Shown here: positions 43,582 through 63,962 of the stretch, one piece after another
Layout of the letters: each line of letters begins with the position of its first letter
How positions within the stretch are numbered: position 1 is the first letter of the stretch
Origin: Methanomassiliicoccus sp.
Lineage (GTDB): Archaea > Thermoplasmatota > Thermoplasmata > Methanomassiliicoccales > Methanomassiliicoccaceae
Assembly: GCA_033485155.1 (NCBI GenBank)
Contig: JAWQJJ010000001.1
Coordinates: 372,001-436,000 of the forward strand
Direction: 5' to 3'
Length of the DNA stretch: 64,000 nucleotides
Program-made: the position numbers and the translations under genes
The notes under the pieces: model-generated
Seen by the model: only the letters and a program-made list of their open reading frames with translations
Databases searched by the model: none
What the model was told of the DNA's origin: nothing

Positions 43582-44472
43582 CTAGTATTCGACCCCAGCG
43601 GCCCGGCAGGCCGCCATCACCGCGTTCTTCATCAGCATGATCCTGGTCATGGGACCGACGCCTGCTGGCACCGGAGTGATGGCCGAAGCCTTCTGGGCTA
43701 CGGCGTCGAAGTCCACGTCGCCCACCCACCGGTAGCCGTTCTTGGCCGTGGGGTCCTCCACTCGGTTGGTGCCCACGTCAACGACCACCGCCCCTTCCTT
43801 GATCATGTCCGCTGTGATGAACTTCGGGGAACCAATGGCTGCGACGACGATGTCCCCGGTCCGCACGATGGCATCGAGGCCTTGAGTGCGCGAGTGGCAA
43901 ACCGTGACCGTGGCGTTGGAGCCCTTCCTCTTCTGCATAAGTATGGCTGCCAGCGGCTTGCCCACGATATTGCTGCGGCCGACGATGACCACGTGCTTGC
44001 CGTCGGGGTCGTTCCCGGAGTGGACCAGCATCTCCTGGATGCCGTGCGGGGTGGCCGGCAGGAACACAGGGTTGCCGATCAGCATCCTCCCGACGTTGAT
44101 GGGGTGGAAGCCATCGGCGTCCTTGGCCGGATCGATGCGCATGATGACCTTGTTCTCATCGATGTGCTTGGGAAGAGGCAGCTGCACGAGGAAGCCATGT
44201 ATGGCCGGATCGGCGTTAAGTTCGTCGACCGTCTCCAGCACCTTCGCCTCCGGCGTGTCCGCCGGCAGAAGGATGGTACGGGAGTAGATCCCTAGTTCCT
44301 GGCATGATTTGGCCTTGTTGCGGACGTACTGCTGGGATGCCGGGTCTTCTCCTACCAGCACAACGGCGAGACCCGGGATGACCCCCCGCTCCTTGAGCTC
44401 TGCAATCTTTATCCTCAGCTCCTGCTTTATCTGCTCCGCGACCTCGGGACCGTGAATGACATTGGCAACCAT
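43582..44472 (-). CDS. folD: Methylene-tetrahydrofolate dehydrogenase/cyclohydrolase
   Basis: 296 residues. The catalytic Lys sits in QQYVRNKAKSC (about residue 55), followed by FLVQLPLPKHI, the NADP-binding GRSNIVGKPLA motif and the PVPAGVGPMT C-terminal signature. FolD interconverts 5,10-methylene-, methenyl- and 10-formyl-tetrahydrofolate. With fhs and metF nearby it completes the folate C1 route here, in an archaeon where methanopterin would be the usual carrier. Confidence 0.95.
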   Translation of the reverse strand: MVANVIHGPEVAEQIKQELRIKIAELKERGVIPGLAVVLVGEDPASQQYVRNKAKSCQELGIYSRTILLPADTPEAKVLETVDELNADPAIHGFLVQLPLPKHIDENKVIMRIDPAKDADGFHPINVGRMLIGNPVFLPATPHGIQEMLVHSGNDPDGKHVVIVGRSNIVGKPLAAILMQKRKGSNATVTVCHSRTQGLDAIVRTGDIVVAAIGSPKFITADMIKEGAVVVDVGTNRVEDPTAKNGYRWVGDVDFDAVAQKASAITPVPAGVGPMTRIMLMKNAVMAACRAAGVEY

Positions 44473-45656: not shown

Positions 45657-47339
45657 ATGAAGGCCGACATCGATATCGCTCAGGAGGCCGTCATGCAGCC
45701 CATCGAAGGCATCGCCGACACCATCGGCCTGTCCCGAGACGATCTGGAGCTGCACGGCCGGTATATGGCTAAGGTCCCTCTGGAGGTCCTCCGCCGCCTC
45801 GACGGCCGGAAGGACGGAAAGCTCGTCCTGGTCACCGCCATCACCGCCACCAAGGCCGGGGAAGGGAAGACGGTCACCTCCATCGGCCTGATGGAGGCTC
45901 TGGGGCACATCGGGGTCAAGGTCATGGGCGCCTTGCGGGAGCCGTCGATGGGGCCGGTGTTCGGCATCAAGGGGGGAGCCACCGGCGGAGGGATGGCTCA
46001 GGTCTATCCGATGTGGGACATCGATCTGCATTTCACCGGGGACATCCACGCGGTCACCTCGGCGCATAACCTTTTATCGGCCATGGTGGACAACCACATC
46101 GCCCACCGTAACGAGCTGGAGATCGACCCCACCCGGGTGGTGTGGAAGAAGGCCATGGACATGAACTGCCGGGAGCTGCGGGAGATCGTGGTGGGGCTAG
46201 GGGGACGGCAGGTGGGCGGGGTGCCGCACGAGAGCGGTTTTGTCATCACCGCGGCGTCGGAGATAAGTGCCATCCTGGCCTTGGCAACGTCGGTCGGGGA
46301 CCTTCGGGCGCGGTTGGAGCGCATCGTGGTCGCATACAACATGAGAGGTGAACCGGTCCGCGCCGGTCAGCTCGACTGCGTGGGCGCGATGCTCGTCCTG
46401 CTGAAGGACGCCATCAAACCCAACCTGGTGCAGACCCTCGAGGGCCAGCCGGTCTTCGTCCATGGGTTCCCGTTCGCCAACATCGCCCACGGCAACAACA
46501 GCCTGTTGGCCACCCGGTACGCCCTGAAACTGGCCGACGTGGTGGTCACCGAGGGAGGCTTCGCTTCCGACCTGGGGGCGGAAAAGTTCTTCGACATCGT
46601 CTGCCGGGAGGGCGGGTTCAGGCCGGACTGCGCGGTCATCGTCGCCTCCATCCGGGCGCTGCAGATGCACGGCGGAGCGTGCCTCCAGGATGCCGTGGGG
46701 TGCGAGGGACCGGACCTCGCCTCGCTGCAGAGAGGCTTCTCCAACCTGGACAAGCATATCGAGAACGTTCGCAAGTATGGGGTGCCGGCGGTGGTGGCCC
46801 TCAACCGCTTCGGCACCGACACCGAAGAGGAGATCCTGGCGGTGCGGGAGCACTGCGCCCGGCTGGGGGTGCCCTGCGCCCTCTCCGAGGTCTTCACCCG
46901 GGGAGGGGAAGGCGGGAAGGAGCTGGCGGAGATGGTCATGGAGGTATTGGGCACCCAACGCAGCGACTTTAGGCCGCTCTATGCCACTGGCCTCAGCATC
47001 GAGGAGAAGATCCGGATCATCGCCACCGAGATCTATGGGGCCAAGGACGTACGGTACATCGGCACCGCCCTCCGCGACATCCGGGCCATCGAGCTGGCTG
47101 GCAACGACAAGCTGCCGGTGTGCATGGCCAAGACCCAGCTGTCCCTCACTGACGACCCCAAGCTCAAGGGCGCGCCCCGGGGGTGGACCCTTACGGTGAA
47201 GGAAGTCCTCCTCTCCGCCGGAGCCGGGTTCATTGTTCCGCTGTGTGGAGACATAATGCTCATCCCCGGCCTTCCGTCCGAGCCGGCGGCCAAGCGTATC
47301 GATTATACCGACGATGGTCGGTTCGTCGGCCTGAGCTGA
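45657..47339 (+). CDS. fhs: Formate-tetrahydrofolate ligase
   Basis: 560 residues, the normal length. The ATP site GEGKTVTSIGL (about residue 70) and REPSMGPVFGIKGGATGGG are the family hallmarks. It makes 10-formyl-tetrahydrofolate from formate. ATG 45657 is chosen; the open frame continues upstream to 45108 but that part is antisense to another gene. Fhs is common in acetogenic bacteria and uncommon in archaea. Its end overlaps the convergent DUF3786 gene by 37 nt. Confidence 0.96.
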   Translation: MKADIDIAQEAVMQPIEGIADTIGLSRDDLELHGRYMAKVPLEVLRRLDGRKDGKLVLVTAITATKAGEGKTVTSIGLMEALGHIGVKVMGALREPSMGPVFGIKGGATGGGMAQVYPMWDIDLHFTGDIHAVTSAHNLLSAMVDNHIAHRNELEIDPTRVVWKKAMDMNCRELREIVVGLGGRQVGGVPHESGFVITAASEISAILALATSVGDLRARLERIVVAYNMRGEPVRAGQLDCVGAMLVLLKDAIKPNLVQTLEGQPVFVHGFPFANIAHGNNSLLATRYALKLADVVVTEGGFASDLGAEKFFDIVCREGGFRPDCAVIVASIRALQMHGGACLQDAVGCEGPDLASLQRGFSNLDKHIENVRKYGVPAVVALNRFGTDTEEEILAVREHCARLGVPCALSEVFTRGGEGGKELAEMVMEVLGTQRSDFRPLYATGLSIEEKIRIIATEIYGAKDVRYIGTALRDIRAIELAGNDKLPVCMAKTQLSLTDDPKLKGAPRGWTLTVKEVLLSAGAGFIVPLCGDIMLIPGLPSEPAAKRIDYTDDGRFVGLS

Positions 47340-47929
47340 TCGCCGGTCACCCGGGTCAAGCGGTCGACGACCCATGTCCCCGCCTCTGCCAGGTCCTCGA
47401 CGGGTAGAAAGAGAGGAGCGGTCGCATCGAAGAGCAGGGTGGCGGTCCCCGGGACCTCCTCGTCGCCCTCCCGAAGGAACAACGTCACCGGGAGGCGGGG
47501 TAACACCCAGAGGATAAACGCCGAATTTCCCGACCGTTCCGCCCCCATCTTGTCCAGCGCTTGTAAGAGCGGGGCGGGGTGTCGGCGATAGAGCTCTCCG
47601 AGCACGTCGTTCACCCTCGATTTGAACGCTGCATAATAGACTGCGCCCCCGTGCAGCTGGCGGAATGAAAGGAGGTTCCCCGAGGGTACCGTCCCGGAGG
47701 CTAGAACGAGATAGTGGAGGACCAGGATGGTCACGGCTTCGTCGACGTTCTCTCCCTCGATGCTCATCCTCCTTTCCTCCAGGCATATGACGCACCTTTG
47801 GTCCAGGAGGTCTAGCATGATCATCCCCTTCTCCACAGTTACTCCGGCATCGGCGGCCAGGGCGGAATGGTCCCGGCCTTCGAGCGTCGTCCATGCCGCT
47901 TCTAGCGCTGCCCGGAACGCGCCGGCCAT
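47303..47929 (-). CDS. DUF3786 protein
   Basis: 208 residues resembling DUF3786: ILVLHYLVLASG, LLSFRQLHGGAVYYAAF, PRLPVTLFLREGDEEVPGTATLLFDATAPLFLPVEDLAEAG. Members occur in anaerobes with corrinoid C1 metabolism and have no known activity. There is a 9-nt gap to the deacetylase upstream, so they may be cotranscribed. It converges on fhs with a 37-nt overlap. Confidence 0.75.
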   Translation of the reverse strand: MAGAFRAALEAAWTTLEGRDHSALAADAGVTVEKGMIMLDLLDQRCVICLEERRMSIEGENVDEAVTILVLHYLVLASGTVPSGNLLSFRQLHGGAVYYAAFKSRVNDVLGELYRRHPAPLLQALDKMGAERSGNSAFILWVLPRLPVTLFLREGDEEVPGTATLLFDATAPLFLPVEDLAEAGTWVVDRLTRVTGDQLRPTNRPSSV

Positions 47930-47938
47930 GATCGCTCC

Positions 47939-48760
47939 TCACCGATCAGCGGCGTTCGAACGGAGGTACTCCGCCACGGTCACCAGCTCGATCCCTCGAT
48001 CCATCGCTCCCTCCAGCACCCTCCTCACCTTGGCCAGCTCCCGCCCCATGCGGTTCGCTCCGCACTCCCCGTCCAGGGACTCGGCGATGTGCCAGCTGTG
48101 ATCGGCGAGGACTAGCAGACCATCGTCGTGAAGAGACATGAGGTGGAGGTAATCGTCCGGTCCCCGGCGCCCCTCATGCATCGGCCAGAGGTAGGACTGA
48201 AGCCGTCGCCCGGTCGCATCCCGGCCCTGGGCCAGAGGAACCTCCAGGAGGGGGCTGGTCAGGCGGTACGGCCTCAATCCCGCCCCCACCTCGCCGAACC
48301 GCGTGGAATCGTACCGCAGGCCGCGCTGCATCAGCACTCTGGCCACCGTATCATCGATGTGCTGGTAGGGGCAGCGGAAGCCCTCCGGGCAGAAGCCGAA
48401 AGCTCCCTCGACCGCGGACAGGGAGCGGCCTACGATGGCGTCCAACCACTCTTCGGACAGCCGGACCCCGGTGCTTTCCCCGGTCAGATCCTCATGCTCG
48501 TAGCCGTGGGCCGCGACCTCGTGGCCCTGCATGAGGTTACGAAGCTTTAGCTCGCCGGAAAGGACCTCCGCGGCTCGGCCCTCCCAGAAGAAAGTGCCCC
48601 TGACGCCTAGGTCGTCCAGCATCTCAACCAGTGCCTGCAGCCCCTTCCTGGTGGAGGTGTAGCGGGTAACGGTGCTCCTCCGGCACAAACTCTCCACATT
48701 CCCCGCCCTGGCCTCATTGACGTCCCGGTCCACGTCCACCGTGAAGGCGGCATAGCGCAT
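47939..48760 (-). CDS. Polysaccharide deacetylase-family protein
   Basis: 273 residues with NodB-homology motifs: TVDVDRD (catalytic/metal Asp), HEVAAHGYEHEDL (metal-binding His pair) and RCPYQHIDD. It is likely a metal-dependent N-deacetylase on a glycan or lipid-linked sugar; the substrate is unknown. No signal peptide is seen, so it would act in the cytoplasm. It precedes the DUF3786 gene. Confidence 0.85.
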   Translation of the reverse strand: MRYAAFTVDVDRDVNEARAGNVESLCRRSTVTRYTSTRKGLQALVEMLDDLGVRGTFFWEGRAAEVLSGELKLRNLMQGHEVAAHGYEHEDLTGESTGVRLSEEWLDAIVGRSLSAVEGAFGFCPEGFRCPYQHIDDTVARVLMQRGLRYDSTRFGEVGAGLRPYRLTSPLLEVPLAQGRDATGRRLQSYLWPMHEGRRGPDDYLHLMSLHDDGLLVLADHSWHIAESLDGECGANRMGRELAKVRRVLEGAMDRGIELVTVAEYLRSNAADR

Positions 48761-48813
48761 GCTGTAGCATGGACCCCGGAATAATTAACAGTTTCAGCAT
48801 AGCGAAAACGCCA

Positions 48814-48858
48814 ATATTAAATAGCCAAAATCGATGAGAATGGCCAGGCTGTGGGGTG
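48814..48858 (+). promoter_or_regulatory. TATA-like box and ribosome site of the hdrA-mvhD-metVF operon
   Basis: ATATTAAATA (48814-48823) would start transcription near 48845; GGGGTG (48853-48858) precedes ATG 48864 by 5 nt, which fixes that start over the longer frame from 48834. Confidence 0.55.
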
Positions 48859-48863
48859 TGGCG

Positions 48864-49871
48864 ATGAATCAGGTCCTCATATTGGGCGGCGGCGCTTCCG
48901 GTCTTGCTGCCGCGGTCGAGCTGTCCCGCCGCGGTCTGCCCTCGACGGTGGTGGAGAGCGATCCCTCGCTGGGCGGAATGGCCTCCCAGCTATCATGTAA
49001 GGGCTCGCCGTCCTGCCAGCACTGTGACGCCTGCCATCCCTACGACCTGAGGAGGGAGGCCCTGCTCAACCCTCTGATCAATCTCATCACCGCCGCCGAG
49101 GTAGGGTACGTGGGCCGCAACCGGGAGGGGTTCCGGGCCACGATTAGAAGTCCCGAGGGCTGCGAGGACTATGACTTCCGAGGGGTCATCATCGCTGTTG
49201 GAGCCATGCCCTACGACCCCGGAAAGGACGCCCGCCTTAGATATCGGGAATGCCCCAACGTCCTGTCGTCCCTGGAGGTGGAGAGATCGCTGGCGGAAAC
49301 CAATGCCCTCACCGTGCCCTCGACTGGCAGGGTCCCGGAGAGTATGGCGATCATACAGTGCGTGGGGTCCAGGGACGCCCAGCGGGGGATGCCATACTGC
49401 TCCAAGGCCTGCTGCAAGTACGCCTCCAAAATTGGACGGAGGCTCCGCCACCTGTACCCGGACCTGAGGCTCACCTTCTTCTTCATGGACTGGAGGCCGA
49501 TGGACCGCTCCGAGCCGACGCCGGAGGAATGGGCTGCCGAAGATGAGCTGGTCCGGGCGGTACGCTCCCGGCCCTCGGAGATCTTGGAAGGCGATCGGCC
49601 GACGGTACGATATGCAACCCCGGCCGACAGCGTGGTCGAGGAGAGCTTTGACGTCGTCATGCTGTCCGTTGGCCTGGTCCCCCGGCCGGACACACCTCGT
49701 CTGGCCGTGGCGTTCGGGCTTGAGGTGGACGCGCAGGGCTACCTCCGCTCAGACCTCGAGGACGTCATCGTGGCCGGCACCTGCGGCGGGCCCAAGGACC
49801 TGAGGGAGAGCATGGAGGAGGGCACCACCGCGGGCGGGCGGATGGCCGCCCTGCTGGAGGCGAGGCCATGA
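48864..49871 (+). CDS. HdrA-like FAD protein, N-terminal part of a split HdrA
   Basis: 335 residues. The FAD-binding GGGASGLAAAVELSRRG is at the N-terminus. Cys motifs typical of HdrA follow: CKGSPSCQHCDAC and, near residue 170, CVGSRD...YCSKACC. HdrA bifurcates electrons between ferredoxin and a second acceptor. Here HdrA seems divided over two genes; this one lacks the C-terminal ferredoxin part, which is in the next gene. It overlaps that gene by 4 nt (ATGA). Confidence 0.85.
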   Translation: MNQVLILGGGASGLAAAVELSRRGLPSTVVESDPSLGGMASQLSCKGSPSCQHCDACHPYDLRREALLNPLINLITAAEVGYVGRNREGFRATIRSPEGCEDYDFRGVIIAVGAMPYDPGKDARLRYRECPNVLSSLEVERSLAETNALTVPSTGRVPESMAIIQCVGSRDAQRGMPYCSKACCKYASKIGRRLRHLYPDLRLTFFFMDWRPMDRSEPTPEEWAAEDELVRAVRSRPSEILEGDRPTVRYATPADSVVEESFDVVMLSVGLVPRPDTPRLAVAFGLEVDAQGYLRSDLEDVIVAGTCGGPKDLRESMEEGTTAGGRMAALLEARP

Positions 49872-50947
49872 TGGCCCCCGTGGTCCTGGTGGTCGGATCC
49901 GGCGCATCGGCCCTGGAGGCGGTGCGGGAGGTCGTGCGCCAGGGCGGGATGGCCACGCTGGTCCGGGACGGTAGCATGCTCCGTCAATGCGCCCTGCGGA
50001 CCCCCGGGGGGTTCGATGTGGTCGACGCAGAGCTTCTCGCCATCGATGGCTCTCCCGGCAGGTTCACGGCGAGGCTCAGCAGCGACGGCGAGGAGATGGT
50101 CTTGGAGTGTTCGGCCATCGTTCTGGCCCCCGAACGGGAAAGACGTCCGGCCGCTCCCGGCACGGCATCGCTGGAGGAGGTCGAGGACCGCAAGGTCTGC
50201 CGGGACCCGCGGAGCGTGGCCTTCGTTCTGTGGCCGGGGACGTCCCGCTCGGCCTTCATCCGTGCGGTCGCCGCGGCTAGGGGGCTGCGGGCCGGTCCGA
50301 GGAGGCCGCAGACCGTTGTGTTCGCTCCGGAGATGGCCGCCTACGGCGTCGACGAGCTGATCTATCGACAGGCTCAGGACGAGGGCGTGATCTTCGTCCG
50401 CTCCGACGAGCCGGAGGTGATCGCCGCCCCGCCCCTGGTCGTGGCGTTGGACCACATCACCGAGCAGATCATAGAGGTAAGGCCGGACCTCCTGGTGGTC
50501 GAAGAGCCTTCCACCCTAACGGGCGAGGTCAGGGTCCCGCCCGCCGGGTTCACCGTCCTCATGGGGCCGCCCAGCAGAGGGGTGGTCAGCACCATGCGGG
50601 AAGGCATCGCCACCCCTGGTCCGGAGGAGGAACGCTTGGACGGGGAAACGGTCACCGGGGCGAGGGCCGCCGCTACCCGCGCGCTTACCCTGGCAAAGTT
50701 CCCGCCGAACCGCCACCCGTGGGCGGCGATCGTCGACCGTGATAAGTGCGCGGCCTGCCTGACCTGCGCCCGGGTCTGCCCCTTCGGCGCCGCCCGCCCC
50801 GGAGAGGAGGGCAAGGCTACTATCGACGGGGCGCTGTGCCAGGCCTGCGGGATATGCGTGGGGGCCTGCCCCGGCCGGGCTCTGTCGCTGCCTAATTATG
50901 GCGGCGTCCCCGAGGTCGGGAACACGCTAATGGAGGCCCGCCAATGA
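49868..50947 (+). CDS. HdrA-like protein, C-terminal part with 2x[4Fe-4S] domain
   Basis: 359 residues. An N-terminal Rossmann-like stretch (VVGSGASALEAVREV) is followed by a second domain and then a C-terminal ferredoxin domain (CAACLTCARVCP and CQACGICVGACP, about residues 296-340). Its order and coupling with the previous gene suggest the two together make a complete HdrA-like bifurcating unit. A stand-alone pyridine nucleotide:ferredoxin module is the other reading. It overlaps both neighbours by 4 nt. Confidence 0.82.
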   Translation: MMAPVVLVVGSGASALEAVREVVRQGGMATLVRDGSMLRQCALRTPGGFDVVDAELLAIDGSPGRFTARLSSDGEEMVLECSAIVLAPERERRPAAPGTASLEEVEDRKVCRDPRSVAFVLWPGTSRSAFIRAVAAARGLRAGPRRPQTVVFAPEMAAYGVDELIYRQAQDEGVIFVRSDEPEVIAAPPLVVALDHITEQIIEVRPDLLVVEEPSTLTGEVRVPPAGFTVLMGPPSRGVVSTMREGIATPGPEEERLDGETVTGARAAATRALTLAKFPPNRHPWAAIVDRDKCAACLTCARVCPFGAARPGEEGKATIDGALCQACGICVGACPGRALSLPNYGGVPEVGNTLMEARQ

Positions 50948-51351
50948 CTGAACCGATTATCGCCCTGTTCATCTGCAAGAACGCTCGGACCGCCCTCGCC
51001 AGCCCGTACGGCATGGAGCAGACCCCTCCGGGAGTGGAGGTCATCGAGCTGCCCTGCTCCGGCCGGGTGGACGAGGTAATGGTCCTCAAGGCCCTACGTC
51101 AGGGAGCCTGGGCGGCGATGGTGGTGGCCTGTCTGGACGGCAACTGCAAGTACCGCATCGGCAGCTACCAGGCCCGGAGGAGGGTAGACGAGGTCCGCTC
51201 CCTGCTGGCGCAGCTCGGTCTGGAGAAGGAGAGGGCCAGGTTCTTCAGTGTAGCCTCCAACCAGCACGCCTGGCTGGCGGAGGCGGTGCAGAGGACGAAG
51301 GAAGCGGCACGGGCATGGGGACCGATAAGGATACTGGAGGGTGACGGATGA
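50944..51351 (+). CDS. mvhD: MvhD/FlpD-like [2Fe-2S] electron-transfer protein
   Basis: 135 residues. It has four Cys in the usual MvhD places: FICKNA, LPCSGRVD, CLDGNCKY. The second Cys of the usual CxxC is missing, but four ligands remain for a [2Fe-2S] cluster. MvhD passes electrons to or from HdrA. In this operon it would link the split HdrA to MetV/MetF. Overlaps both neighbours by 4 nt. Confidence 0.87.
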   Translation: MTEPIIALFICKNARTALASPYGMEQTPPGVEVIELPCSGRVDEVMVLKALRQGAWAAMVVACLDGNCKYRIGSYQARRRVDEVRSLLAQLGLEKERARFFSVASNQHAWLAEAVQRTKEAARAWGPIRILEGDG

Positions 51352-52049
51352 TCATCGCCGAGCGGAAGGACCTGGGACAGATAGTAGAGATGCTTGAAGG
51401 CAAAGAGAGGGTCCTGGTGGCGGGATGCCGCTCCTGCGTGTCGATCTGTCACGCCGGGGGGGAGAAGGAGGTCGCCACCCTGGCCGAGGTGCTGAGGCTC
51501 CAGGCGATGAACGAGGGCCGGGAGCTGGAGGTCACCGAAGCCACCGTAGAGCGGCAGTGCGAGAAGGAGTGGGTGAGGGAGATCGGACGCCAGGTAGCGG
51601 ACAGCGATATCGTCCTCAGTCTAGCCTGCGGGGTCGGAGTGCAGGTCATGCAGGAGTTTTATCCTACGGTGATGACAGTGCCGGGCCTCAACACCTCCAA
51701 CATGGGCGCTCCGGAGGAGCAGGGCATCTACATGGAAAAGTGCGGAGGATGCGGGGACTGCGTCCTCCACCTCACCGGCGGGGTGTGCCCGGTGGCGAGG
51801 TGCTCGAAGTCGCTGCTCAACGGCCCGTGCGGGGGCTCCCAGGACGGCCGGTGCGAGGTCAACCGGGACCTGCCATGTGGGTGGGACCAGATCTACCACA
51901 GCCTGGAGCGGCTCGGTCGGCTGGATCTGCTCGAGGTGAACATCCCTCCCAAGAATTGGATCCCATCCCGGTCAGGCGGGCCGCGCCGCATCGTCCGCGC
52001 GTCCATCGTGCAGGGGAACGAGGAGAAGAGGGCAGGGGGCGGAGCATGA
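51348..52049 (+). CDS. metV: MetV-like zinc/iron-sulfur subunit of methylene-THF reductase
   Basis: 233 residues. Many Cys in order: AGCRSCVSICH near the N-terminus, EKCGGCGDCVLH, GVCPVARC, GPCGG and GRCEVNRDLPCGW. This is the MTHFR C-terminal-like protein (MetV) that accompanies MetF in acetogens and carries Fe-S or zinc sites. It stabilises MetF and passes electrons to it. Overlaps metF by 4 nt. Confidence 0.9.
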   Translation: MIIAERKDLGQIVEMLEGKERVLVAGCRSCVSICHAGGEKEVATLAEVLRLQAMNEGRELEVTEATVERQCEKEWVREIGRQVADSDIVLSLACGVGVQVMQEFYPTVMTVPGLNTSNMGAPEEQGIYMEKCGGCGDCVLHLTGGVCPVARCSKSLLNGPCGGSQDGRCEVNRDLPCGWDQIYHSLERLGRLDLLEVNIPPKNWIPSRSGGPRRIVRASIVQGNEEKRAGGGA

Positions 52050-52957
52050 GGTCCGGCAGCGATCTGGAATCGACTCTGGAGTGTGTTCGTGATACGGCGA
52101 CCACCGAGATCGGTCCCCCGAAGTCGGCCGGGGCCGAGCACGTGCGAAAGAAGGCTAAGGCACTCAAGGGCTACGCCGATGCCTTCAACCTGACCGATAA
52201 CCAAACCGCCATCGTCCGCCTGTCGAGCCTGGCTTCGTCGGTGGTGTGCCTGCAGGAAGGGGCGGAGCCGGTCATGCAGATGACCTGCCGCGACCGCAAC
52301 CGCATCGCCATGCAGTCCGATCTGCTGGGCGCAGCGGCGCTGGGCGTCAGGAACGTGCTGTGCATCTCCGGCGACCATCAGACCTTCGGCAACCAGAAGG
52401 AGGCGAAGAACGTCTACGACATCGACCCTGTGCAGCAGCTGATGGTATTTCGCCAGATGCGCGACCTAGGACAGGTTTGGGGCGGTGATGTCCTGGAAGA
52501 GCGGCCCAGGGTGTTCCTGGGAGCGGCGGCCAATCCCTTCGCTGATCCCTTCGAATTCCGTGTGACTCGCCTGGCCAAGAAGATCAACGCCGGCGCTGAC
52601 TTCATCCAGACGCAGGCGATCTTCGACCTCGACCGCTTCGAGAGGTTCATGGCCATGGTGAGGGAGCGGGGACTGGACCAGAAGGTCCACATCCTCGCCG
52701 GGGTCATCCCCCTCCGTTCGGCCAACGCCGCGAGGTACATGAAAACCAAGGTCTCGGGGATGAGCGTGCCGGACGAGATCGTGGACCGCATGAAGGGCGC
52801 CGCGGACCCTAAGAAGGAGGGCGTGAGGATATGCGTGGAGACGATCGAGAGACTGAAGGACATCCCCGGAGTTCATGGCGTCCACATAATGGCCATAGGA
52901 TGGGAGGACATTGTACCGACCATCGTGCAGGAGTGCGGCCTCATGCTTCGGTCCTGA
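52046..52957 (+). CDS. metF: 5,10-Methylene-tetrahydrofolate reductase
   Basis: 303 residues of the FAD-dependent MTHFR barrel (MQMTCRDRNRIAMQSDLLGAAALG, CISGDHQTFG, FIQTQAIFDLDRFERFM and LAGVIPL). It reduces methylene-THF to methyl-THF. ATG 52046 overlaps the metV stop; the longer frame upstream is antisense-like shadow of metV. It is the last gene of the five-gene operon. In acetogens the HdrA/MvhD/MetV/MetF set forms a large complex. Confidence 0.95.
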   Translation: MRSGSDLESTLECVRDTATTEIGPPKSAGAEHVRKKAKALKGYADAFNLTDNQTAIVRLSSLASSVVCLQEGAEPVMQMTCRDRNRIAMQSDLLGAAALGVRNVLCISGDHQTFGNQKEAKNVYDIDPVQQLMVFRQMRDLGQVWGGDVLEERPRVFLGAAANPFADPFEFRVTRLAKKINAGADFIQTQAIFDLDRFERFMAMVRERGLDQKVHILAGVIPLRSANAARYMKTKVSGMSVPDEIVDRMKGAADPKKEGVRICVETIERLKDIPGVHGVHIMAIGWEDIVPTIVQECGLMLRS

Positions 52958-53909: not shown

Positions 53910-54686
53910 TCAGTCCCTCAAGAAGTCGTCACAGTACAGCCGCTCGTTCAGAAGCACGTGACCCGCCTTGATGGTGGCCATCAGTTCGGGGTCCTCAGGA
54001 TCGCAGATGGCGGCGCTCAGGCCCGCCCCCAGGAGCATGGCCAGGAAGGTGCGGTTTATCAGGCTCCGCTGCTTGGTGCCGTTGGATACGTTGCTCAGCC
54101 CAACCACCGTGCGGGGCGCGGGGTCGTTGAGCACCTGGAACATCTGGACTGCCTGGATGACCTTCTTTCCCTGATCCTGGGCGGCGTTGGTCGGCAGTAC
54201 CAGAGGGTCGAGGAACAGGCGGTCGGGCATGATGTCATACTCCATGGCCTTGGTCATCATGAGCATGGCCATCTCGGCCCGAGCATCCGCGGAGTTCGGT
54301 ACACCGCGCTCATCCATGCACAGGCAGATGATCTCGGCCTCGTACTCCTTGCACAGGGGAAAGAAACGGTCCATGCGCTTCACTTCCGCGGTGGTGGAGT
54401 TCATGATGACCTTATTGGTGGCGGCCTTGAGCCCAGCCTCCATAGTCTTGGGGCCGGAGGTGTCGAGGGACAGCGGCACCGGCACCACCTCCTGCACGGT
54501 CCTCACCAACCAATCCATGGCCGCCGGGCCGTCCTCGCGGCCGGGGCCGACATTGACGTCCAGGGCCTGGGCGCCGTGCTCCACCTGGCTCAGGGCCAGG
54601 TCCTGGATGAACTTCGCGTCGCGATGGTCGATGGCCCTGCCGACGGAAGTGAAGAGGCCGTTGATCCTTTCTGAGATGATGAACAT
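53910..54686 (-). CDS. acsE: AcsE-like methyl-THF:corrinoid methyltransferase (pterin-binding family)
   Basis: 258 residues from ATG 54686, starting FIISERINGLF as in AcsE. Marks of the pterin-binding barrel are ALDVNVGPG (with the Asn/Asp), PLSLDTSG, NSTTAE and GLSNVSNG. It would move the methyl group from methyl-THF to a corrinoid protein of CODH/ACS. Only TTG starts lie further upstream; using TTG 54782 would add 32 residues, with a TATA-like stretch near 54787 in favour. The corrinoid partner is not in the window. A MtrH-like protein for methanogenic transfer is the main alternative. Confidence 0.85.
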   Translation of the reverse strand: MFIISERINGLFTSVGRAIDHRDAKFIQDLALSQVEHGAQALDVNVGPGREDGPAAMDWLVRTVQEVVPVPLSLDTSGPKTMEAGLKAATNKVIMNSTTAEVKRMDRFFPLCKEYEAEIICLCMDERGVPNSADARAEMAMLMMTKAMEYDIMPDRLFLDPLVLPTNAAQDQGKKVIQAVQMFQVLNDPAPRTVVGLSNVSNGTKQRSLINRTFLAMLLGAGLSAAICDPEDPELMATIKAGHVLLNERLYCDDFLRD

Positions 54687-54826
54687 GATTATCGGGGCGA
54701 AGAAGGTTACTATCTGATAAAAGGGTTCCTGCCCGTCGTATCCGGCCAGGATCTCCCTGGCGATGTCGCGAACTCTCCCCAAAGTAATTATGGTCGGGGG
54801 AGGATAGGACCACCACGGTGAGGCAA

Positions 54827-59333: not shown

Positions 59334-59387
59334 ACTCCTGGTAGCCAGGTCGTTGCCTTAAATAACTCGATGGGACCTTTCACTCCC

Positions 59388-61277
59388 ATGGCCCACACGG
59401 TCACCTTCTTCCCGGGAAGCATCGTCGCCAGCGTTCAGGATGGCCAGACCATACTGGACGCGGCGGTGGCGGCGGGGGTGCAGATCAACAGCGTGTGCGG
59501 GGGCAAGGGAACCTGCGGCAAGTGCCTGGTGATCGTCGACGGGCCGTCGGAGTCGGAGCCCGGCCACCTGACCGATGAGGAGAGCCGTCTGGGATATCGT
59601 CTGGCGTGCAGGACGGTGGTACGCGGCGACCTGTCGGTGTTCATACCTGAAGAGTCCCAGGTCAGCGAACATCAGATCCTCGCCCGGTACCACGGGCGGG
59701 AGGCGGAAGACCTCACTCCGCTCACCGAGGTGCGTCGTCTAGATCTTGCAGCCCCCTCTCTGGAGGACAACCTCGCCGACCTCGAACGGGTCACCTGTGC
59801 CCTAGGCAACCCCGACCTCGTGGTACCCCTGCCCCTGCTGCGCGATTTGCCTGCGGTGCTGCGGGAAGGGGGCTGGCAGCTCTCGGTCATGCTCTCCCAC
59901 CTGGACGGGACGGAGAGGCTGATGGCCATCGAGAAGGGCTCCAAGGCCATCCCCAACTATGGTCTGGCGGTCGACGTCGGCACCACCACAGTGGTCGCCG
60001 AGCTAATAGATCTAGCCACCGGTCGGACCGTGGCTCAAGCCTCCGACTATAACCGCCAGCTGGTGTGCGGCGAGGACGTGCTATCGCGCATCGCCTATGC
60101 CGAGGAGAAAGGACTGGAGCGTCTCACCGAGCTGGTCGTCGATACCATCAACGGGCTCATCAACCAGCTGTGCGCGGAGAGAGACAAGAAGAGACGCTTC
60201 CATTCCGGCACATGCGACGAGGACATCGCCTCCATAGTAATCAGCGGCAACACCACCATGGTGCACATGCTCCTTGGGCTTGATCCCAAGAACATCCGGT
60301 ACGCGCCGTACATCCCTATCACCAACGTCCCGCCGGTGATGACCGCCTCGGAGGTCGGCCTGCGGGCGCAACCCGACGCACCGGTGTTATGCGTACCCGG
60401 GCGAGCAGGGTACGTGGGCGGGGACATCACCTCTGACATCCTGCTGTCGGGGATGCACCACCGGGACGAGCTGACGCTGCTGATCGATGTTGGCACCAAC
60501 GGCGAGGTCGTTCTCGGCAATAGGGAATGGATCATCGGCTGTTCGACCTCGGCGGGCCCGGCCTTCGAGGGCGGTGAGGTCTCCTGTGGCATGCGGGCGA
60601 TGAGCGGAGCCATCGACAAGGTCGCCATCGACGAGCGCGAGATCAGCGTGACCACCATCGGTGGGGGGAAGCCCCGGGGCATCTGCGGTTCGGGGCTAAT
60701 CGATCTCCTCGCCCAGATGTTCTCCCAAGGCTACCTAGACAAGAAGGGGCGTATCGACACCGAGCGCTCGGAGAGGGTCCGCTCCACCGGTCGGGGAATG
60801 GAGTTCATCGTCCATCGTCAGCCCGGGGGAAGGACATTGGCGGTAAGCGACGATGACATTGCCAGCGTCATCCGTACTAAGGCGGCGATCTACGCCGGGT
60901 GCGCGGTGCTCCTACAGGCCGTGGACCGCAGCTTCTCCGACCTGGACAGGGTCTGCATCGCCGGCGGTTTCGGCAACTATGTCAACATCGAGAACGCCCA
61001 GACCATCGGCCTCCTGCCGGACCTTCCGAGCTCCAAGTTCGAGCTATTGGGCAACGCCTCCCTGGGCGGGGCCCGGCTGTGCCTGCTGTCCGAGGCGATG
61101 AGGAGGGAGACCATGGACATCTACTCCATGATGACCTACCTGGACCTGTCGTCGTCCACCGCGTTCTTCGACCAGTACTCCTCGGCGCTCTTCCTGCCGC
61201 ATACCGACCTTGAGCAATTTCCCACGGTCCGGGACCGCCTCGGTGCGGCCAAGAGCGGGCGAGGCCCCGATTCATAA
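59388..61277 (+). CDS. Corrinoid-activating ASKHA ATPase with N-terminal [2Fe-2S] (RACE/DUF4445)
   Basis: 629 residues. An N-terminal [2Fe-2S] domain (CGGKGTCGKC...LACR) is followed by a linker and a C-terminal ASKHA ATPase domain (VDVGTTTVVAELID, NTTMVH, DVGTNGEVVLG, GICGSG). Such proteins reductively reactivate corrinoid methyl carriers (AcsC/D, MtxC types). A TATA-like TTAAATAA 26 nt upstream of ATG 59388 supports a leaderless start. It shares the block with the MetE-like and CooC-like genes. Confidence 0.9.
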   Translation: MAHTVTFFPGSIVASVQDGQTILDAAVAAGVQINSVCGGKGTCGKCLVIVDGPSESEPGHLTDEESRLGYRLACRTVVRGDLSVFIPEESQVSEHQILARYHGREAEDLTPLTEVRRLDLAAPSLEDNLADLERVTCALGNPDLVVPLPLLRDLPAVLREGGWQLSVMLSHLDGTERLMAIEKGSKAIPNYGLAVDVGTTTVVAELIDLATGRTVAQASDYNRQLVCGEDVLSRIAYAEEKGLERLTELVVDTINGLINQLCAERDKKRRFHSGTCDEDIASIVISGNTTMVHMLLGLDPKNIRYAPYIPITNVPPVMTASEVGLRAQPDAPVLCVPGRAGYVGGDITSDILLSGMHHRDELTLLIDVGTNGEVVLGNREWIIGCSTSAGPAFEGGEVSCGMRAMSGAIDKVAIDEREISVTTIGGGKPRGICGSGLIDLLAQMFSQGYLDKKGRIDTERSERVRSTGRGMEFIVHRQPGGRTLAVSDDDIASVIRTKAAIYAGCAVLLQAVDRSFSDLDRVCIAGGFGNYVNIENAQTIGLLPDLPSSKFELLGNASLGGARLCLLSEAMRRETMDIYSMMTYLDLSSSTAFFDQYSSALFLPHTDLEQFPTVRDRLGAAKSGRGPDS

Positions 61278-62939: not shown

Positions 62940-63962
62940 ATGGCCTGGAACTGCGCACCCAGTGTTATTGGGTCGCTCCCCCACACCGACCCGGCGAGGG
63001 CGGTCGACCTGATCATGGACAGCCTGCGCTCGATCCCGACCTGGCCGCAGCTGCCCAACATGGGCTTCCGAGAGAACATGTATGCGCAGTACGCCCGCTA
63101 CCTGCCGGGGGCGCAGATCGACGAAGTCCGGAAGAAGATCCGTGTGAACCTCTCGGACTACGATCCCGAGGACGTGTACATGCGGATCCTGTCCGAGGAC
63201 GTCGATTCATTCTCTTTGCCCGAGGACAGCTTCGCCGGCTTCCACGAGTTCATGTCCCGCGACCTCCCGCCCACCGCGCTCGCGGTGAAAGGCCAGGTCA
63301 CCGGGCCGGTGTCCATGGGCTTGCAGCTGACCGATCAGAACGACCGCCCGGTGCTGTACGACGAGACGTACGCGGAGATAATCCGCAAGTGCTTGAACCT
63401 CATGGCCCGGTGGCAGGAGAGGGAGCTGCGCAAGAAGAGCCAGCAGGTGATCACCTTCTGGGACGAACCATACCTGTCGATGATGGGCACGCCCTTCGCC
63501 AGCGTGTCCCAGGACGACGTCCGGGCGTGGATGGCCGATGTGAGCACCGGCCTGGAGGGCTTGACCGGCGTGCACTGCTGTGCCAACACCGACTGGCCGT
63601 TCGTCATGTCCCTGGGGATCGACTTCCTATCCTTCGACGCCTACGACTATGGGTACACCATCGTGCTGTACCCTGAGGAGATCCAGCGGTTCCTCGAGAG
63701 GGGCGGGTCCCTGGCCTGGGGGGTGGTCCCCAACAGCGAGGAGAAGCTGGCCAACGAGAGCGTCAGCTCGCTCGTTGGGTCCATGGAGAGCATGTTCGCC
63801 AATCTGGGCTCTAAAGGAGTGGATACGGACTTGCTGGCCCGGCAGAGCATGATCACCCCGCAGTGCGGCCTGAGCGGGCTGGACGAGAGAGGTGCAGGAA
63901 AGGTAATGGAGCTGCTGCGGGGTGTATCCAGCGCCCTCGCCTCCAAATATTCGCTCGGATGA
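62940..63962 (+). CDS. MetE-like (core methionine synthase) methyltransferase
   Basis: 340 residues of the MetE/UroD-like barrel without the N-terminal half of MetE. Zinc ligands are visible in GVHCCANTDW (HxC) and TPQCGLSG. Core-MetE proteins in anaerobes take the methyl group from methyl-corrinoid proteins rather than methyl-folate; the neighbouring corrinoid activator supports this. The methyl donor and acceptor are inferred. A TATA box at 62906-62914 is about 26-30 nt before ATG 62940. Confidence 0.8.
   Translation: MAWNCAPSVIGSLPHTDPARAVDLIMDSLRSIPTWPQLPNMGFRENMYAQYARYLPGAQIDEVRKKIRVNLSDYDPEDVYMRILSEDVDSFSLPEDSFAGFHEFMSRDLPPTALAVKGQVTGPVSMGLQLTDQNDRPVLYDETYAEIIRKCLNLMARWQERELRKKSQQVITFWDEPYLSMMGTPFASVSQDDVRAWMADVSTGLEGLTGVHCCANTDWPFVMSLGIDFLSFDAYDYGYTIVLYPEEIQRFLERGGSLAWGVVPNSEEKLANESVSSLVGSMESMFANLGSKGVDTDLLARQSMITPQCGLSGLDERGAGKVMELLRGVSSALASKYSLG

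Follow-up and report, generated by a model that had tools for sequence, protein, structure and literature searches.

How a MetVF-type methylene-tetrahydrofolate (methylene-THF) reductase obtains its electrons, and whether it conserves energy by bifurcating them, remains to be settled in Wood-Ljungdahl metabolism, and the question is raised by an operon of the archaeon Methanomassiliicoccus sp. The operon lies in the stretch of 64,000 nucleotides analysed here (the window; assembly GCA_033485155.1, contig JAWQJJ010000001.1, positions 372,001 to 436,000), where five plus-strand open reading frames (ORFs) without internal stops occupy positions 48864-52957 and encode two HdrA-type proteins (ORF1 and ORF2), MvhD, MetV and MetF. 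The original prediction regarded this set as a candidate bifurcating reductase. We favour, with a probability of roughly 0.55, a different interpretation, according to which the operon would encode one MetVF-type methylene-THF reductase (MTHFR) complex, whose HdrA unit is most likely an unbranched electron conduit that was derived from a bifurcating enzyme and is probably fed by MvhD.

The five genes had been described as joined by 4-nt overlaps, and all four junctions indeed read ATGA, each of the four downstream starts being preceded by a purine-rich, GGAGG-like stretch. A TATA-like stretch at about 48813-48823, recognized by eye, suits the ORF1 start at 48864 and not the upstream in-frame ATG at 48834. 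The gene identities proposed earlier agree with the Pfam/NCBIfam matches: ORF1 is an HdrA-like flavin adenine dinucleotide (FAD) protein (best match NF040770, HdrA2, 9.7e-44), ORF2 is HdrA-like with two [4Fe-4S] motifs (2.7e-16), and the remaining three match MvhD/FlpD (1.4e-29), DUF5981 (MetV, 2.7e-34) and MTHFR (MetF, 1.3e-38). MetF (PF02219) and MetV (PF12225) are thus co-encoded, as is characteristic of MetVF-type MTHFR, and HdrA and MvhD share one unit with them, as in the complexes of Moorella and Sporomusa, which upholds the proposed link to the acetogen sets. However, hdrB and hdrC, which those complexes also comprise, do not adjoin the operon, as had been noted, and they are absent beside the split ORF1/ORF2 pair in all relatives scanned. 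As the gene set and its order recur in several families of the order, the association is far above chance. Sequence comparison gives no relative of known structure for MetV, and a scan of genome contigs with ORF2 as the query gave a single match, which is bacterial and distant.

What are the two HdrA-type proteins? The original prediction saw one HdrA divided in two, an FAD part and a ferredoxin part, and it is correct in that there are two HdrA-type genes, but the cut itself has to be rejected, since both proteins carry their own thioredoxin reductase (TrxR)-like fold and larger versions of both occur in relatives. ORF1 comprises a TrxR-like fold with a GGGASG motif and lacks the inserted ferredoxin domain; it aligns end to end with a 349-aa HdrA-like protein of known structure, 6tjr (residues 1-323 to 1-332), and its AlphaFold2 model (predicted local distance difference test, pLDDT, 93.8) matches HdrA and 6tjr at a template modelling (TM) score of about 0.9. 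ORF2 comprises a degenerate TrxR-like domain and a C-terminal 2x[4Fe-4S] ferredoxin domain, and lacks the N-terminal cluster domain (N-domain); structure prediction confirmed the expectation that it folds like the C-terminal part of HdrA, HdrA chains being the top Foldseek matches of its AlphaFold2 model (pLDDT 87.0). The same genome also encodes, together with MvhD-MvhG-MvhA, a fused HdrA of 1006 aa, in which a first module, TrxR with inserted ferredoxin, is followed by a second one composed of N-domain, TrxR and C-terminal ferredoxin. When the HdrA modules are placed in one tree, ORF1 groups with the N-modules at an ultrafast bootstrap (UFBoot) of 100; ORF2 is not part of this group and sits on long branches. 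Because each protein has a TrxR-like fold of its own, the order matches that of the fused HdrA and ORF1 groups with the N-modules, ORF1 and ORF2 are the separately encoded N- and C-terminal, paralogous modules of a double HdrA. C57 of ORF1 aligns with Cys197 of Methanothermobacter wolfeii HdrA, while ORF2 has no equivalent (the position is deduced from the alignment); a pair of paralogs of which only one carries this residue is what is expected of a heterodimer, and we infer that ORF1 and ORF2 form an asymmetric one. The architecture also suggested a possible identity with QmoA/QmoB; the literature search gave no link of these to MetVF, and neither qmoC nor aprAB was recognized around the operon.

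The ferredoxin branch of HdrA has been described as consisting of the N-terminal cluster, to which the partner contributes Cys197, and the inserted ferredoxin (PMC9012536). Both domains are absent from the window pair, which thereby lacks what is expected of a flavin-bifurcating HdrA, and both are present in related genomes, which makes the label "bifurcating" doubtful. MetV (PF12225) was found in 71 of the 400 genomes of the class. In two families (f23 and f31) the arrangement is Moorella-like, HdrC-HdrB-fused HdrA-MvhD-MetV-MetF, and a further arrangement, found among others in genome G170, has fused HdrA-MvhD-MetVF. The split pair retains both the ORF1 insert and the ORF2 N-domain in f2, f3, most of f6, f8 and f24; it has kept the N-domain and lost the insert in genera g27 and g28; and it lacks both in g25 and in all loci of f1, the family of the window, so that here the N-domain is missing from the partner without Cys197, whereas ORF2 of other families has it. 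In the 42 loci where both ORF1 and ORF2 were readable, insert and N-domain are kept in 26, the N-domain only in three, neither in 13 and the insert only in none, a correlation not to be taken as a statistic, as the number of events is small; in one locus (L105) the N-domain is diverged and was recognized by eye. The gap between the Cys motifs of ORF1 spans 166-178 residues with the insert and 101-115 where it was lost. In G170 (locus L140), the double HdrA next to MvhD-MetV-MetF is a fusion of 1470 aa that contains a GltD-like insert and resembles the Moorella HdrA described in PMC9430772.

The [4Fe-4S] ligands of the ORF1 TrxR domain (C166, C179, C183 and C184) are all kept in every aligned row, while ORF2 lacks the four TrxR-cluster Cys, as well as the counterpart of K409, in every split form. 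Fused HdrA proteins from genomes with HdrBC retain both TrxR clusters, so that the second exit cluster and HdrBC were lost in association. In ORF2 both C-terminal clusters (C294/297/300/304 and C324/327/330/334) are kept, these ferredoxin Cys being invariant across the aligned relatives, and the four Cys of MvhD are kept throughout. The N-domain, where readily aligned, keeps three Cys, in agreement with the published fourth ligand from the partner HdrA (PMC9012536).

Since both domains of the published ferredoxin branch are gone from ORF1 and ORF2, an unbranched conduit appears the most likely function. The analysis shows which genes are present, which domains were lost, which residues are conserved and which folds are predicted; the path, the donor and the direction go beyond this and would be as follows. 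MvhD would be the entry adaptor, with electrons passing from the donor to its [2Fe-2S] cluster, the C-terminal ferredoxin of ORF2, the flavin, of which at least one would be left, and the TrxR [4Fe-4S] cluster of ORF1, which would be the single remaining exit, and then to MetV, which would relay them to MetF for the reduction of methylene-THF. The likeliest donor would be H2, via the MvhAG hydrogenase of the same genome docking on the operon MvhD, because it is MvhD that connects the hydrogenase in HdrABC-MvhAGD, and because the genome gave no match to the F420 dehydrogenase domain of FrhB type (PF04432); F420H2 as the donor via an FrhB-type subunit was rejected for the latter reason. The methyl-THF produced would serve the AcsE-like methyltransferase, acetyl-CoA synthase and the core methionine synthase. 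HdrA, MvhD and MetVF of Sporomusa have been found to interact in pulldowns (PMC9430772). In three loci a 395-396 aa polyferredoxin-MvhD fusion lies directly 5' of MetV-MetF (L106 3626-4816, L112 5313-6503 and L113 5089-6276, all on the minus strand) and no HdrA was recognized nearby; such a flavin-free adaptor variant, in which MetVF pairs with MvhD without any HdrA flavin, fits a conduit.

Several observations weigh against this interpretation. No hydrogenase is encoded within the operon, whose MvhD has diverged from its catabolic counterpart. Trees disagree as to whether the insert was lost once or twice. ORF1 retains a four-Cys motif, CKG..C..C..C (C45, C51, C54 and C57); its first two Cys have no counterpart in HdrA structures, so that ORF1 may carry its own cluster. 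The window ORF1 also keeps E140 and K189, equivalents of E356/K409, and such a pair near the flavin marks bifurcating flavins (PMC9430772), so that some splitting chemistry is possible. The complex could still bifurcate if the electrons were split at the ORF1 flavin and the part of the lost domains were played by the four-Cys cluster or by a ferredoxin or flavodoxin from outside the complex; besides the intact signature, this would be favoured by the invariance of the four-Cys motif in 39 ORF1 proteins and by the ~41 kJ/mol left over from H2 to methylene-THF (PMC9430772). We regard it as unlikely, as neither domain of the known ferredoxin path is left, K189 is replaced by Q, H or R in 4 of 11 members of the window family, and the motif is equally present in relatives with the full branch and thus did not arise as a replacement.

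Slightly less probable still is that MetVF works alone, with reduced ferredoxin, and that ORF1, ORF2 and MvhD are a co-transcribed accessory or a decaying module. MetVF is found without these three in family f5, where MetV-MetF still adjoin FolD/AcsE, and the MetVF of Clostridium ljungdahlii is reported to depend on reduced ferredoxin (PMC8515935); however, the invariance of the ORF1 cluster residues and of the ORF2 ferredoxin Cys indicates a module under selection, and translational coupling is retained. The unlinked HdrB2-HdrC2 pair of the genome (C1:352926 region) might instead complete an HdrABC-type complex with ORF1/ORF2 and provide a thiol/disulfide electron partner, given that it has no recognized HdrA gene beside it and is found in most of the same families. 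This is very improbable: G009, G010, G011, G012, G016, G005 and genus g30 have ORF1/ORF2 and no HdrB2 match at E<=1e-60, a distribution that disfavours an obligate partner, ORF2 has lost the cluster from which a second HdrC would be supplied, and HdrB2C2 has MvhD and HdrD-like neighbours of its own.

If the HdrA unit is an unbranched conduit, how was the branch lost? A tree of MetV+MetF separates the family of the window (UFBoot 99) from the g25/g27/g28 group (UFBoot 100), which implies two losses of the insert and two of the N-domain. However, the MetVF data do not reject a topology in which all sequences without the insert form one clade (approximately unbiased test, p-AU 0.08), and the ORF1 tree groups them weakly (support 60). 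The direction of change depends on a midpoint root and on the fact that the outgroups have complete architectures. The dismantling would have begun with the loss of HdrBC and the splitting of the double HdrA, followed by loss of the insert, then of the N-domain (as in the window), and finally of the whole HdrA/MvhD unit. Tentatively, and at somewhat below even odds, the class may thus keep living intermediates of the stepwise dismantling of a bifurcating MTHFR, the window enzyme being a onetime bifurcase that now merely conducts electrons and a new functional class of HdrA-linked MTHFR.

The sHdrA of Hyphomicrobium denitrificans belongs to a sulfur-oxidation system. It resembles ORF1 (PDB 6tjr; TM 0.89/0.88, 26% identity) and is also devoid of the inserted ferredoxin, but lacks the four-Cys motif. 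The window proteins resemble HdrABC-MvhAGD of methanogens (PDB 5odc, 8rvu) in how HdrA and MvhD fold and in most of the ligands to their cofactors; in contrast, HdrBC and the ferredoxin branch are lacking and, judging from the context, the acceptor would be MetVF. The tandem or fused heterodimeric HdrA of anaerobic methanotrophic archaea (ANME) are likewise complementary paralogs, one with the Cys197 equivalent and the other with the N-domain (here found in relatives), but the window pair is tied to MetVF and its family has lost the N-domain and the inserted ferredoxin (PMC9012536); MetFV-HdrA-MvhD clusters have been noted for Ca. Syntrophoarchaeum in the same study. The MetVF-HdrCBA-MvhD sets of Moorella thermoacetica and Sporomusa ovata also co-encode MetV, MetF, MvhD and a double-TrxR HdrA, and in S. 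ovata, too, HdrA is without the inserted ferredoxin domain (PMC9430772). Unlike them, the window set is archaeal, has no HdrB or HdrC and has its HdrA in two genes, with no TrxR cluster in module 2 and, in the whole family, no N-domain. It resembles the acetogen MetVF-HdrA-MvhD reductases, but has neither their HdrBC nor the HdrA domains that reduce ferredoxin.

Table 1. Genes of the operon and conserved neighbours, in window coordinates
Feature	Position	Strand	Remark
FolD, methylene-THF dehydrogenase/cyclohydrolase	43582..44472	-	assigned from sequence; neighbour in most relatives
Fhs, formate-THF ligase	45696..47339	+	assigned from sequence; start approximate, longest ORF from 45108
DUF3786 protein	47303..47929	-	conserved neighbour
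Polysaccharide-deacetylase-fold protein	47939..48760	-	divergent conserved neighbour
ORF1, HdrA module 1	48864..49871	+	335 aa
ORF2, HdrA module 2	49868..50947	+	359 aa
MvhD/FlpD, predicted [2Fe-2S] docking subunit	50944..51351	+	135 aa; four Cys kept: C11, C38, C63, C68
MetV, Fe-S partner of MetF	51348..52049	+	233 aa; 13 Cys
MetF, methylene-THF reductase catalytic subunit (flavin)	52046..52957	+	303 aa
AcsE-like pterin-binding methyltransferase	53910..54782	-	start codon approximate

The gene order with FolD, Fhs and AcsE is conserved among relatives (Table 1), and most genomes of the order have the DUF3786 and polysaccharide-deacetylase-fold genes in the interval from Fhs to the operon. Downstream, the window contains a RACo-type corrinoid activator (59370-61277, plus strand) and a candidate core (MesB-like) methionine synthase (62940-63962, plus strand). 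The genome has 2.8 Mb (GC content of the window, 60.5%) and contains mcrA; an Fpo-like cluster was recognized by eye inside the window, AcsB, AcsC and AcsD are encoded ~4-9 kb past its end (L064 6208-10640, minus strand, contig C1), and a separate CODH-like protein is found at C1:533497. With AcsC, AcsD, AcsB and the separate CODH, this methanogen genome has a complete set for acetyl-CoA synthase of the bacterial type. Orphan HdrB2-HdrC2, HdrD-like and MvhD genes without a recognized HdrA gene are found at C1:352.9-356.5 kb (L065 3924-7465, minus strand). On contig C14 (L067 6381-7529, plus strand), a 382-aa protein combines the N-terminal cluster domain of HdrA with two [4Fe-4S] motifs and with MvhD, has no flavin domain, and is adjoined by a corrinoid-protein-like gene.

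The presence of mcrA, the Fpo-like cluster, HdrA-MvhDGA, AcsBCD, CODH, FolD, Fhs and AcsE-like genes fits a methanogen host with a bacterial-type folate Wood-Ljungdahl pathway, and a folate branch of this pathway has been already reported in Methanomassiliicoccales (PMC10804542). The split, branch-less form and the graded series are not described in the openly accessible literature that we searched. With the operon, the folate Wood-Ljungdahl pathway of methyl-reducing methanogens gains an electron module new to that literature, and the natural series, in which the branch is removed piecewise beside the same MetVF core, offers matched enzymes with and without the branch for a direct test of bifurcation.

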